In this document: piece by piece, positions 28,253-31,905 of the stretch
How positions within the stretch are numbered: the stretch's first letter is position 1
Layout: each line of letters starts with the position of its first letter
From: Alphaproteobacteria bacterium
Lineage (GTDB): Bacteria; Pseudomonadota; Alphaproteobacteria; Geminicoccales; Geminicoccaceae
DNA length: 64,000 nt
NCBI GenBank assembly: GCA_027045875.1
Contig: JALUAG010000011.1
Coordinates: 26,143-90,142, forward strand
Direction of reading: 5' to 3'
Position numbers and translations under genes: made by a program
Notes under the pieces: model-generated
Seen by the model: only the letters and a program-made list of their open reading frames with translations
Database searches by the model: none
What the model was told of the DNA's origin: nothing

Positions 28253-29740
28253 TCAGACGGGAAGCTGGAGGGTCGCCCGGAGACCGCCCTCGGGCCGGTT
28301 GGCGAGATACAGATCCCCGCCGTGGCTGCGGGCGATGGTGCGGACGATGGCGAGGCCGAGACCGATTCCTCCTGTTTCCCGCGAGCGACTGCCTTCGAGC
28401 CGGAAAAAGGGCTCGAAGGCGCGCTCGATCATCCCGGGCGGAATCCCGGGCCCCTCGTCCTCCACCACGACGCGCACGAAATCGCGTTCCCGCTCGAGCG
28501 CGACCTTCGCCCGGGTGCCGTAGCGCACCGCGTTCTCGATCAGGTTCCTGAGCGCACGCCGCAGCGAATCCGGACGGCACAGCACCACCGGACGGGCCCC
28601 TGCCCGGAAGGTGACATCCCATCCGATGTCCGCACAGTCGGCGACCAGACTCTCCACCAGTGCCGCCAGGTCCACGGTCCGCGCCGGTTCGGTGGCCGCC
28701 TCCTCGCGGAGGAAGGCGAGGGCCGCCTCGACCATCCGTTGCATCTCGTCCAGGGTCTCGACGATCTTGGCGCGGGTTTCCTCGTCCTCCACGAACTCGG
28801 CACGGATCCGCAGCGAGGTGATCGGTGTCCGGAGATCGTGTCCGATCGCCGCCAGCATGCGGGTGCGGTCCTCGACGAAACGCTTGAGCCGCTCCTGCAT
28901 CAGGTTGAAGGCACGGACCGTCTGACGGATCTCCGCGGGTCCCTTCTCCTCCAGGGGCGCCACCTCCAGACCGCGGCCGAAAGCATCGGCGGCCCGCGCC
29001 AGGCCCTTGAGCGGTCGGGTGGTGCGTCGCAGCGCGAGCACCGTGACGAAGGAGATCGCGAGACCGGCGAGCAGAGAGGCGAGCAGGGAGGGTGCGGCCC
29101 AGGCGAGAGCCGGAGCGGGAATCACGGTCTCGACGTTGAGCCAGCGGTCCGGACCGAGCGCGACCGACAGCACGAGACTGCGTCCTCCCGGCAGGAGCCG
29201 CGCCGGGTGATCGCGCATCGACCGCATCAGGCCGCGCATTCTCTCGTTCTCGTCGTCCTCCTCCTCGTCCTCGTGATCGTCGTCATCGTCGTCATCGTCG
29301 TCATCGTCGTCGTCGCCGCGACGGAACATGTCCTGCCAGCGCTGGCGCCACAGGCCGAGACGCGAGGCTTCCTCGGTATCGGCGAGAACGAGTGGCGGCG
29401 GACCGCCCGAAGCCATCAGGCGGCGGAGATGACGGACCACGATGTTGTCGCGATGGCGCGGATCCCCGGGATCGATCAGGCTCTCACTGGAGATCGCGAA
29501 ACGCAGGCGGCTGCCGCTGGCCGCCCGGACGATGCGCGGATGCAGATCCTCCGGAGTCTCCCGCAGCAGGCGCAGCAGGGCCGCGGTGCGGGCGATCACC
29601 TGTTCGCGGCCGGCCGCCAGCAGGGCCAGCCGACGCTCGTCGGCGAAGATGAGGAAGGTGAGGAGCTGGGCGCCGAACAGGGCCAGCAGCAACAGCAGTA
29701 CGAGCTGTCCGGCGAGGGTCCGGGGCCACGGCCGTCTCAT
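28253..29740 (-). CDS. Sensor histidine kinase with poly-aspartate periplasmic tract
   Basis: A 495-residue inner-membrane kinase: helix 1 (about 10-33), periplasmic sensor region (34-210), helix 2 (about 213-236), HAMP (to about 290), H-box AAIGHDLRTPITSL with phospho-acceptor His301, and an ATPase domain (NLIENAVRYG, DEGPGIPP, GIGLGLAIV). The sensor region contains 13 consecutive Asp (143-155), His156, then a mixed Asp/Glu run to 166: 22 of 24 residues are acidic. Acidic patches in PhoQ bind divalent cations or cationic peptides, so cation sensing is a reasonable inference. It overlaps the response-regulator gene by ATGA. Confidence 0.93.
   Translation of the reverse strand: MRRPWPRTLAGQLVLLLLLALFGAQLLTFLIFADERRLALLAAGREQVIARTAALLRLLRETPEDLHPRIVRAASGSRLRFAISSESLIDPGDPRHRDNIVVRHLRRLMASGGPPPLVLADTEEASRLGLWRQRWQDMFRRGDDDDDDDDDDDDDHEDEEEDDENERMRGLMRSMRDHPARLLPGGRSLVLSVALGPDRWLNVETVIPAPALAWAAPSLLASLLAGLAISFVTVLALRRTTRPLKGLARAADAFGRGLEVAPLEEKGPAEIRQTVRAFNLMQERLKRFVEDRTRMLAAIGHDLRTPITSLRIRAEFVEDEETRAKIVETLDEMQRMVEAALAFLREEAATEPARTVDLAALVESLVADCADIGWDVTFRAGARPVVLCRPDSLRRALRNLIENAVRYGTRAKVALERERDFVRVVVEDEGPGIPPGMIERAFEPFFRLEGSRSRETGGIGLGLAIVRTIARSHGGDLYLANRPEGGLRATLQLPV
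29276..29314. repeat. In-frame 9-bp microsatellite encoding the Asp tract
   Basis: On the plus strand, GTCGTCATC is repeated perfectly three times (29279-29305) and followed by GTCGTCGTC; on the kinase strand it reads Asp codons only (GAC and GAT). Because the unit is nine bases, slippage would add or remove three Asp without breaking the frame. Confidence 0.85.
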
Positions 29741-30456
29741 GCGCGCGTGACCTCGGCCACGAAGCTGTAGCCACCGCCCCAATGGGTCTTGATGTACCGC
29801 GGCCGCCGCGGGTCCTTCTCGATCTTCTTTCTGAGCCGGCTCACCAGATTGTCGATGGAGCGGTCGAACAGCTGCGCCTCCCGGCCGCGTGCCAGATCCA
29901 GCAGCTGATCGCGGCTCAGCACCACACCGGGATGACGCACGAAGGCCAGGAGGAGCTGATACTCGGCGGTGCTCAGCGGCACCGTCACACCGTCCTCGCG
30001 CAGCAGTTCGCGACGGGCGGGATCGAAGGTCCAGTGGCCGAACCGCAGACGGCCGCGCTCCACCCGCTCGTGGGCCGGTGGCAGGCTGTTGACGCGGCGC
30101 AGCACGGCCTTGATGCGGGCCAGGAGCTCCCGCGGATTGAAGGGCTTGGTGACGTAGTCGTCGGCCCCGATCTCGAGCCCCACGATGCGGTCGGTCTCGT
30201 CGGCCATGGCAGTGAGCAGGACGATCGGGACGGAGCTCCGCGCCCGCAGGTCCCGACACAGCGAAAGACCGTCCTCGCCGGGCATCATGATGTCGAGAAT
30301 GATTAGATCGATGGCGTGCCCCGCGAGCACCCGTCGCGCCTCTCGCACGTCCGCCGCCATCGACACGCGATAGCCGTGGCGCTGCAGATACTTGCCGAGC
30401 GCGTCGCGGATCTCGCGGTGATCGTCGACGACGAGAATGTGGGCTGTCTTTTCCAT
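29737..30456 (-). CDS. OmpR/PhoB-family response regulator
   Basis: A 239-residue regulator. The receiver domain has the acidic pair DD at 11-12, phospho-acceptor Asp55 in LIILDIMMPG, Thr in LLTAMAD and Lys in DYVTKPFNP. The C-terminal winged helix (about 140-235) ends with DRSIDNLVSRLRKKIEKDP and the GGGYSF wing. Its stop overlaps the kinase ATG, so the two form an operon. It is divergent from the EF-hand gene across 191 bases that contain a tandem TGTCAC repeat, the usual layout of OmpR-family sites. Confidence 0.95.
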   Translation of the reverse strand: MEKTAHILVVDDHREIRDALGKYLQRHGYRVSMAADVREARRVLAGHAIDLIILDIMMPGEDGLSLCRDLRARSSVPIVLLTAMADETDRIVGLEIGADDYVTKPFNPRELLARIKAVLRRVNSLPPAHERVERGRLRFGHWTFDPARRELLREDGVTVPLSTAEYQLLLAFVRHPGVVLSRDQLLDLARGREAQLFDRSIDNLVSRLRKKIEKDPRRPRYIKTHWGGGYSFVAEVTRA

Positions 30457-30523
30457 CGGCCGGATCCGTCCTTCAGCGATGGGCCCTTACCACGACCCGG
30501 GAAGCCTCCGCGGAAGGGAAAAT

Positions 30524-30647: not shown

Positions 30648-31181
30648 ATGAAGACCTGGAAGAAGTTGACAGTCGCGGGCGCCGCGGTCGCCCTCGTCGG
30701 CGGGGCGGTGCTCGTGGGCGGCGCCTACGCCGACTCGAGCTGGGACGACGACTACTACGGCATGGGCTTCATGATGATGGGCGGCAAGGACGCGATGCGT
30801 CACGGCGGCCCGGGTACCATGCTGCGGAAGTTCGACCTCGACGGTGACGGCAGGATCACCCGCGAAGAGGCGCTCCAATCCCGCGCCGACGAGCTCGCGA
30901 AGTACGACGCCGACGGCGACGGCAGGCTCAGCGTCAGGGAATACGAGCGGCTCTGGCTCGACTACACCCGTCCGATGCTCGTCCGGCGCTTTCAGATGCA
31001 CGACACGGATGCCGACGGTCAGGTGACCAGGGAGGAGTTCGGCGCCATCGTCGATCGCATGTTCTGGCGCATGGACAGGAACGGTGACGGCGTCATCGGA
31101 CCCGCCGAGATGCGCCGGGCCGCCAAGTGGAAGAAGGAGCGCTACGAGTATCGTCGCTACCGCGACGATGACGACGACTGA
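30648..31181 (+). CDS. Periplasmic four-EF-hand protein
   Basis: A 177-residue exported protein. Signal peptide ends near AYA (residue 29). Four canonical EF-hand loops follow: DLDGDGRITREE (63-74), DADGDGRLSVRE (87-98), DTDADGQVTREE (119-130) and DRNGDGVIGPAE (143-154), arranged as two pairs; each has Asp at 1, 3 and 5 (Asn at 3 in the last) and Glu at 12, so calcium binding is likely. A Met/Gly-rich segment (38-58) precedes them and the protein ends with five Asp. A strong GAGGAGG ribosome site precedes the ATG. It is divergent from the two-component genes and followed by cytochrome b561, suggesting a calcium or cation response unit. Confidence 0.9.
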   Translation: MKTWKKLTVAGAAVALVGGAVLVGGAYADSSWDDDYYGMGFMMMGGKDAMRHGGPGTMLRKFDLDGDGRITREEALQSRADELAKYDADGDGRLSVREYERLWLDYTRPMLVRRFQMHDTDADGQVTREEFGAIVDRMFWRMDRNGDGVIGPAEMRRAAKWKKERYEYRRYRDDDDD

Positions 31182-31281
31182 ACCTCGTACCCCCGGGGCG
31201 GGACCGCGACCCGGCCCCGGGGACCTCCGTCCGGCGATCGCCCCGGACGGCGGCCGAAGGAACGGAAGAGGGAGCCCGCCC

Positions 31282-31905
31282 ATGTCCGCGTTGCGTGACA
31301 CACCGGAAGGCTACGGCCTGGTGACAAGAGCCCTACACTGGTCGGTGGCCGCCCTGATGATCGGAAATTTCGCCCTCGGTCTCCTCGGCGAGGAGGCGGA
31401 AGGCAGCGGCCTCGTCTATGATCTGCACGTTTCGCTGGGGTTGCTGACCGGTGTCCTGGTGGTGATCTGGATCCTGTGGCGGCTCGCCAATCCCAAGCCG
31501 GAGCCGCTGTCGCGCAGCCCGCTCGAACGCGGCCTCGCGCGCGGCGTCCAGTTCGCCCTGCTGCTGCTCACCCTGCTGATCGTGGCGAGCGGCGTGGGCG
31601 GTGTCCTGGGCGAGGGGCGGCCGCTCAGTTTCTTCGGTGTCGACCTCGCCGCCGCCTCGTCGTCGCCCGTCCCTTACGGCGAGCCCTCCCTGCGCAACGG
31701 CTGGTTCGAGGAGGAGGAGTACGAGGACGAATATGGCGAAACGGAAGCCGGTGAGTTCTGGGAAGAATTGCACGAACTGCTCTCCCAGCCCCTGTTCCTG
31801 CTGCTGCTGGCGCTGCACCTGGGCGGTGTCCTGAAGCACCATTTCGTCGATCGCGACCGGACGCTCGCCCGAATGCTGGGCGGCCTGCGGGGTGCCGCTT
31901 CCTAG
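31282..31905 (+). CDS. Cytochrome b561-family membrane protein with acidic loop
   Basis: A 207-residue di-heme-type b561 protein of the prokaryotic (CybB-like) group, with four helices. Candidate heme ligands are His19 (RALHWSVAALM), His49 (YDLHVSLG), His179 (ALHLGGVL) and His186/187. The loop before the last helix (142-165) is strongly acidic (GWFEEEEYEDEYGETEAGEF), echoing the acidic tract of the nearby kinase. Such proteins carry electrons between the quinone pool and periplasmic partners. It is probably cotranscribed with the EF-hand gene, 100 bases upstream. Its TAG stop shares a CTAG with the convergent ABC gene. Confidence 0.88.
   Translation: MSALRDTPEGYGLVTRALHWSVAALMIGNFALGLLGEEAEGSGLVYDLHVSLGLLTGVLVVIWILWRLANPKPEPLSRSPLERGLARGVQFALLLLTLLIVASGVGGVLGEGRPLSFFGVDLAAASSSPVPYGEPSLRNGWFEEEEYEDEYGETEAGEFWEELHELLSQPLFLLLLALHLGGVLKHHFVDRDRTLARMLGGLRGAAS

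Follow-up and report, generated by a model that had tools for sequence, protein, structure and literature searches.

What signal reaches a two-component system whose kinase carries an almost wholly acidic run in its sensor domain, and do the genes of an EF-hand protein and a cytochrome b561 next to it belong to the same system? The question is raised by a locus in a 64,000-nucleotide stretch of contig JALUAG010000011.1 (assembly GCA_027045875.1, Geminicoccaceae, Alphaproteobacteria), hereafter the window, in which the open reading frames (ORFs) place a regulator/kinase pair on the minus strand and the EF-hand and b561 genes on the plus strand, the two pairs facing away from each other. Most two-component systems respond to signals that have yet to be identified. 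In this case the composition of the sensor loop and that of the neighbouring EF-hand protein seem to change together, which would offer a sequence-based handle on the signal in many Alphaproteobacteria. The conserved unit comprises three genes, for regulator, kinase and a divergently encoded EF-hand protein, and recurs across the Alphaproteobacteria; b561 is an optional addition in the lineage of the window, and the core of the module is without it. We propose tentatively, as a possible rather than a probable reading, that the acidic loop of the kinase binds a divalent cation, probably calcium, and that the EF-hand protein buffers the same ion.

A preliminary description of this DNA had joined the kinase, the EF-hand protein, b561 and a tandem site into one cation- or peptide-responsive unit that would link calcium buffering to electron transfer, and all of these features were found in their places (Table 1). 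The kinase tract has the 22 acidic residues in 24 that had been claimed and lies between two hydrophobic stretches (about residues 13-31 and 219-237), the EF-hand protein has four loops and ends in Asp5, and the tandem site stands between the divergent gene pairs. The acidic loop of b561 is also present, one residue off the 142-165 given before. The acidic feature said to be common to the four genes holds for the kinase, the EF-hand protein and b561, and does not hold for the regulator, which has no acidic tract.

Conservation of the regulator, kinase and EF-hand genes

A total of 122 loci were compared: the window, 14 loci from the family, 27 from the class and 80 from named genomes. The class loci are 27 of the 30 best (the other three repeat loci already included) from a search that matched 59 of 289 genomes, and the named set is the best 80 of at least 586 regulator matches. 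Duplicates (L031, L064, L066, L071, L072) and L073, in which no regulator was found, had been dropped beforehand; L076-L079 were not entered, and L080-L082, which repeat the window, G014 and G006, were omitted. Near-identical regulators were retained (L119/L120/L122, L127/L128, L138/L141, L160/L171/L192).

Within the family, an EF-hand match (E-value 1e-8 or better) was detected in 25 of 31 genomes, and in 20 of these 25, the window included, a divergent regulator lies beside the EF-hand gene, mostly 165-200 bp away; G004, G005, G010, G011 and G020 have no regulator relative beside the EF-hand gene within the stretch fetched. Loci sampled by regulator similarity only revealed a divergent EF-hand gene in 51 of 107 cases (11 of 27 in the class, 40 of 80 in the named genomes). 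Clustering of the neighbours in 53 EF-hand loci returned the EF-hand gene (45), the regulator (45) and the kinase (39) together with one antisense-frame cluster, followed by b561 (7), a malate-synthase-like gene (7) and others with at most 6. The clustering and the regulator-drawn loci thus indicate a module of three genes to which b561 was added.

The b561 protein scores above the gathering score of PF01292 (102.9 against 30.1 bits), falls below the cut-off of the E. coli-type NCBIfam family PRK11513 (33.5 against 170 bits) and is distantly related over residues 11-128 to the solved chain 5oc0 (E 5e-9). The basic flanks of its other loops suggest that the acidic loop faces the periplasm. A b561 gene follows the EF-hand gene in 12 of 66 EF-hand loci, and within the family in 7 of the 20 loci with a divergent regulator; on the tree, the b561 state switches three times. 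In the class loci the flank covered extends for only some 1.5 kb, and a more distant b561 would be missed there. The acidic loop is absent from the b561 proteins of L035, L086, L087, L093, L125 and L133. The preliminary description had made its case depend on the four genes being conserved together, which is true of regulator, kinase and EF-hand gene and not of b561. Because b561 is found at so few of the EF-hand loci and its acidic loop is absent elsewhere, the link between calcium buffering and electron transfer that had been suggested is at most a lineage-specific addition. In the lineage of the window, b561 is probably co-transcribed with the EF-hand gene and would move electrons at the same membrane face.

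Acidic tracts in the kinase loop and the EF-hand tail

Among window ORFs of at least 60 amino acids, runs of at least seven Asp/Glu residues occur only in the kinase, which has two of them. The tract aligns to a loop that is hypervariable in length and sequence and precedes an LSVxLxDGxWLN strand. In the congener G002 the tract has 19 acidic residues in 24 in a different D/E/N/H order, and this conservation of acidity without conservation of residue order argues for selection on charge and not for a fresh repeat. The structure model of the sensor is a mixed alpha/beta domain in which the acidic tract is a lower-confidence coil; fold comparisons were weak and non-specific, with the periplasmic domains of CpxA and PhoQ among the matches. 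The cytoplasmic part of the kinase has CpxA as its best match among solved chains. The best NCBIfam families are EnvZ for the kinase (203.6 bits, cut-off 415) and OmpR for the regulator (276.8 bits, cut-off 331), both below cut-off, as is the CpxA score of the kinase.

The hydrophobic N-terminal segment of the EF-hand protein (residues 7-25) ends in AYA-D and was read by eye as a signal peptide; such segments predict that both this protein and the sensor loop are periplasmic. Only the Pfam EF-hand and Dockerin_1 models match it, and no CpxP/Spy-type match was found among them. An alignment of 24 EF-hand proteins, from which longer family members were omitted, has eight invariant columns and a shared segment between loops 2 and 3, so that these proteins form one family; the EF-hand region is modelled as confidently helical, with weak matches to calmodulin and lanmodulin. 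In lanmodulin the paired loops are spaced by 24 residues and Pro occupies loop position 2. The protein described here is likewise of periplasmic type, with loops paired at a 24-residue spacing, and differs in that Pro at position 2 occurs in none of the 236 loops of 66 loci (196 have Thr/Ser at position 9) and that its NCBIfam LanM score is 39.4 bits against a cut-off of 135. The loops of the window are canonical and calcium-type.

The sensor was read in 111 of the 122 loci (unread: L034, L061, L093, L101, L104, L107, L109, L116, L175, L190, L191), and the family rows had been chosen by EF-hand or b561 match, not by acidity. An acidic tract, defined by a cut-off of at least 10 Asp/Glu in 24 residues that was set after the data had been seen, is present in 22 of 60 kinases with an EF-hand gene versus 1 of 51 without (Fisher p 2.6e-6). 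It is found in 7 of 9 kinases with both EF-hand and b561 genes, in 15 of 51 with the EF-hand gene only and in 1 of 51 that have no EF-hand gene. The 111-row tree has 12 changes of the EF-hand state and 15 of the acidic state; by parsimony the latter are 11 gains and 4 losses, and 10 of the 11 gains fall on EF-hand branches, which represent 51% of the tree length (p 0.007). The acidity of the kinase also correlates with that of the EF-hand tail (Spearman 0.71, n=60), and independent contrasts on two trees gave r values of 0.45 and 0.48 (sign-flip p 0.0095 and 0.0055). The sole acidic-tract kinase for which no EF-hand gene was found, that of L102 (16/24), comes from a locus with only about 1.5 kb of flank covered.

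Acidic runs are concentrated in the module and are not exclusive to it. In the 122 loci (1.05 Mb), 13 runs of at least seven Asp/Glu were counted in kinases, 3 in EF-hand proteins and 3 elsewhere, the last three all in the same acidic gene, which neighbours the module in L063, L068 and L070. In these three loci neither the EF-hand tail nor the kinase, where it was read, is acidic. The neighbour gene is unrelated and lies within 1.5 kb of the module; its product is a zinc-ribbon-like protein whose C-terminal part is long and acidic. The kinase frame of L093 is split over two ORFs in the assembly, the second of which carries an acidic/His tract, and stands outside the tract counts.

The tandem box, the proposed circuit and its alternatives

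The tandem site has the form TGTCAC-N4-TGTCAC (TGTCACGGAATGTCAC). No other exact TGTMAC-N4-TGTMAC occurs in the window, and the 3.5-Mb assembly has two exact occurrences in all, this one included. A TGTMRC-N4-GTCRC-like core is conserved in most of twenty aligned family intergenic regions, and a box with at least 10 of 12 positions and 10-bp spacing was detected in 52 of 66 EF-hand loci, with 5.4 expected from dinucleotide shuffles. On the forward strand of these loci, spacings of 8, 9, 11 and 13 gave 13, 6, 2 and 6 matches and spacing 12 gave 31, and on the other strand spacings of 10 and 13 gave 44 and 42; we tentatively read the extra signals as further half-sites. On the other strand the box resembles the E. 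coli OmpR motif GTTACAnnnnGTTACA quoted in an excerpt of PMC7315122, and TGTCACGGAATGTCAC fits the OmpR-type GTTACANNNNGTTACA only if the fourth position of each half may be A or C. The box looks like an operator of this regulator family, positioned to control both directions. The other exact box of the assembly (G000 contig C109, 35471-35486; L111) has a third half-site nearby and lies, by ORF reading, between AMP-binding ligase-like and metallo-hydrolase-like genes; it is possibly a second target of the regulator.

A comparable layout is known from CpxP-CpxRA and ZraP-ZraSR, in which the gene of a small periplasmic protein stands beside the regulator and kinase genes; cpxP is divergent, as is the EF-hand gene here (the location of whose product is predicted), and the cytoplasmic part of the window kinase best matches the CpxA chain. 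According to excerpts of the literature, CpxP is thought to damp its kinase (PMC6737893) and ZraP represses its own system only when zinc-bound (PMC10848872). Unlike these systems, the partner here is an EF-hand protein with no CpxP/Spy Pfam match, the kinase has a poly-Asp loop and its CpxA score is sub-cut-off. Given the shared layout, the EF-hand protein is therefore proposed as a regulated ion-binding partner. The acidic loop of the kinase would bind a periplasmic divalent cation, probably calcium; the regulator would act at the tandem box, controlling the EF-hand gene and possibly its own; and the EF-hand protein, by buffering this ion as well, would weaken the kinase signal by feedback. 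That the kinase and the EF-hand protein sense and buffer the same metal ion is likely. If the whole circuit is true, a bacterial kinase would be under feedback from an EF-hand protein that binds calcium or another metal, and the copper-associated form would provide a natural counterpart for comparison. The cation-responsive unit of the preliminary description has thus gained support from the recurrent module, the association of acidic tract and tail and the conserved divergent box; the choice of calcium over another metal or a cationic peptide has not.

Several results weigh against the proposed circuit, in addition to the late choice of the acidity cut-off. In G001, a draft genome of the same genus (660 contigs, 90% complete), no EF-hand match and no b561 match was obtained, and 38 of the 60 kinases beside an EF-hand gene have no acidic tract. 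The independent-pair test on the 111-row tree, with only three supported pairs, gave no support, nor did pairwise testing of tract against tail on the tree of EF-hand loci, where informative pairs were too few; the rank correlation of the contrasts is 0.15 (p 0.27). The acidity of the EF-hand body also correlates with that of the kinase before correction (Spearman 0.29, p 0.02; p 0.09 after tree correction). When one mismatch is allowed, the box occurs 3 times in the assembly, as often as a reversed control pattern (3). It is also present in 31 of 56 loci without an EF-hand gene, versus 2.6 expected, and so marks the regulator family and not the link to the EF-hand gene. No sigma-70-type promoter was found. 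Lastly, the Met/His content of kinase and EF-hand protein is uncorrelated across the chromosomal loci (p 0.09).

This last point bears on the relatives carried by plasmids. EF-hand relatives were found on 46 plasmid records, of which 10 were analysed in detail; L193 and L195-L202 are plasmids of the Roseobacter group, Hoeflea, Martelella and Gemmobacter with Met-rich EF-hand proteins. A DUF302 gene lies directly downstream of the EF-hand gene in 9 of the 10 stretches, copper or heavy-metal genes are present in 8 (not in Limimaricola or Martelella), kinase and regulator are divergent from the EF-hand gene in 5, and the tandem box was seen by eye in 3 of the 4 plasmid intergenic stretches read. 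The plasmid EF-hand proteins contain 14-18% Met in 9 of 10 cases (5% in Limimaricola), whereas the chromosomal ones, counted over their last 190 residues, do not exceed 12%. The five plasmid kinase loops are not acidic (5-6/24) and have 5-9 His/Met in 24, three reading PMPHxxPEMAEMH and two a looser form; chromosomal loops have 1-8/24 with an EF-hand gene and 1-5/24 without. These data could be read as a tunable metal-sensing cassette, in which the hypervariable kinase loop and the EF-hand extensions switch residue type together and bind one ion: calcium in the Asp-rich form, since its loops are calcium-type and have no lanmodulin signature, and possibly copper in the Met/His-rich plasmid form. 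Sensor and buffer would then share one ligand that is readable from sequence. We consider this extension rather doubtful. The plasmid copies probably represent a single lineage, and with no Met/His correlation among chromosomal loci the contrast is only suggestive and not a test.

The same observations could instead point to an envelope-stress system for a transition metal of the copper type, whose loop senses a copper- or zinc-like metal that the EF-hand protein sequesters, the acidic form being a variant. The copper genes around the plasmid copies, their Met-rich EF-hand proteins and His/Met kinase loops speak for it, as do the Gly/His/Met-rich linker before EF loop 1 (mean 4.7 His+Met per 40 residues in the chromosomal set) and the His present within several chromosomal acidic tracts. 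We regard it as unlikely: no copper genes are among the clusters recurring in at least 3 of the 53 chromosomal loci, the window tract has one His only beside calcium-type EF loops, and the plasmid copies, besides their probable single origin, overlap the chromosomal ones in kinase His+Met. An acidic sensor might also respond on the model of the PhoQ acidic patch, which an excerpt of PMC4473727 describes as bridged by divalent cations and displaced by cationic peptides; the tract would be bridged to phospholipids through Mg2+ or Ca2+ and released by acid, by cationic peptides or when cations are scarce, and the EF-hand protein would be an output and not a feedback element. In both proteins the sensor domain is flanked by two membrane helices and contains an acidic region. 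The PhoQ patch lies on two helices, whereas the window tract is a long, coil-like poly-Asp insertion modelled at lower confidence, the fold matches are non-specific, and the PhoQ family is not among the 25 best of 82 NCBIfam matches, all of which makes this explanation distinctly unlikely.

Another alternative is that the tracts are neutral low-complexity growth of GAY/GAR codons in a tolerant loop and play no part in sensing; the conserved module would then be an ordinary two-component system whose target is an EF-hand gene. The window tract does begin as a GAC/GAT repeat in a hypervariable loop, many module kinases have no tract, and in L063, L068 and L070 an unrelated acidic gene lies near the module. 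Neutral expansion nevertheless appears very unlikely to us, given that 16 of the 19 long acidic runs lie in a kinase or an EF-hand protein, that the G002 tract keeps its acidity in another residue order, and that tracts follow the presence of the EF-hand gene and correlate with its tail. Least probable among the explanations weighed is an electrostatic docking, tuned by calcium, of the basic C-terminal helix of the EF-hand protein on the acidic kinase loop. It recalls what has been proposed for CpxP on CpxA; according to an excerpt of PMC6737893, CpxP probably acts directly on the CpxA sensor domain, and the window tail reads KWKKERYEYRRYR before Asp5. Kinase acidity, in contrast, tracks only the Asp/Glu of the tail and not its Lys/Arg (Spearman 0.17, p 0.19; contrasts p 0.18).

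Comparison with other systems and layout of the locus

EnvZ/OmpR resembles the window pair as the best NCBIfam family of both proteins and in the OmpR-like box, and differs in the sub-threshold scores, the EF-hand neighbour and the acidic sensor loop. Excerpts of two papers describe partial parallels. In the Caulobacter CaBP-SigV system (PMC13171946) a periplasmic EF-hand protein takes part in a calcium/pH-responsive regulatory loop, the partner being an ECF sigma factor and here a two-component system; in LcoA-BcnA (PMC9113575) a cytochrome b561 gene is linked to the gene of a small secreted protein, there a lipocalin and here an EF-hand protein. Among the titles and abstract beginnings of the matches listed for the combination or its parts, from a search with most subscription journals outside its scope, we found no description of this gene set, and the excerpt of PMC10141476 does not mention EF-hand. 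The features of the locus are given in Table 1. The start ATG of the kinase gene overlaps the stop of the upstream regulator gene; a longer mechanical ORF from 30259 was rejected as the kinase gene in favour of this start.

Table 1. Features of the locus, in window coordinates
Feature	Position	Strand	Basis
EnvZ/CpxA-like sensor histidine kinase, 495 aa	28253..29740	-	Pfam HAMP, HisKA, HATPase_c above cut-offs; two hydrophobic stretches
Kinase acidic tract, residues 143-166, 22/24 Asp/Glu, predicted periplasmic	29243..29314	-	
OmpR-family response regulator, 239 aa	29737..30456	-	Pfam Response_reg, Trans_reg_C; best NCBIfam OmpR, below cut-off
Divergent intergenic region common to regulator and EF-hand gene	30457..30647	.	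Similar layout in relatives (usually some 165-200 bp)
Tandem box TGTCACGGAATGTCAC, predicted regulator-binding site	30524..30539	+	Conserved in relatives; OmpR-motif-like
EF-hand protein, 177 aa, predicted periplasmic	30648..31181	+	Pfam EF-hand; signal-like hydrophobic N-terminal segment
EF loop 1 DLDGDGRITREE, from residue 63	30834..30869	+	
EF loop 2 DADGDGRLSVRE, from residue 87	30906..30941	+	
EF loop 3 DTDADGQVTREE, from residue 119	31002..31037	+	
EF loop 4 DRNGDGVIGPAE, from residue 143	31074..31109	+	
Asp5 tail at EF-hand protein C-terminus	31164..31178	+	
Prokaryotic cytochrome b561 (PF01292), 207 aa, accessory gene	31282..31905	+	Pfam
b561 acidic loop, residues 143-166, 13/24 Asp/Glu	31708..31779	+	Only in relatives of same family

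Where relatives of the two-component system have no EF-hand gene, their neighbours are often molybdopterin/2Fe-2S oxidoreductase genes, which are annotated in L203-L205 and were read from ORFs in L124, L127 and L150, and RND-efflux-like genes were seen near L124, L130, L153 and L171. In the window, the region downstream of b561 (31902-36900) encodes on the opposite strand, by ORF reading, a peptide-type ABC transporter operon composed of an ATPase fusion, two permeases and a binding protein.

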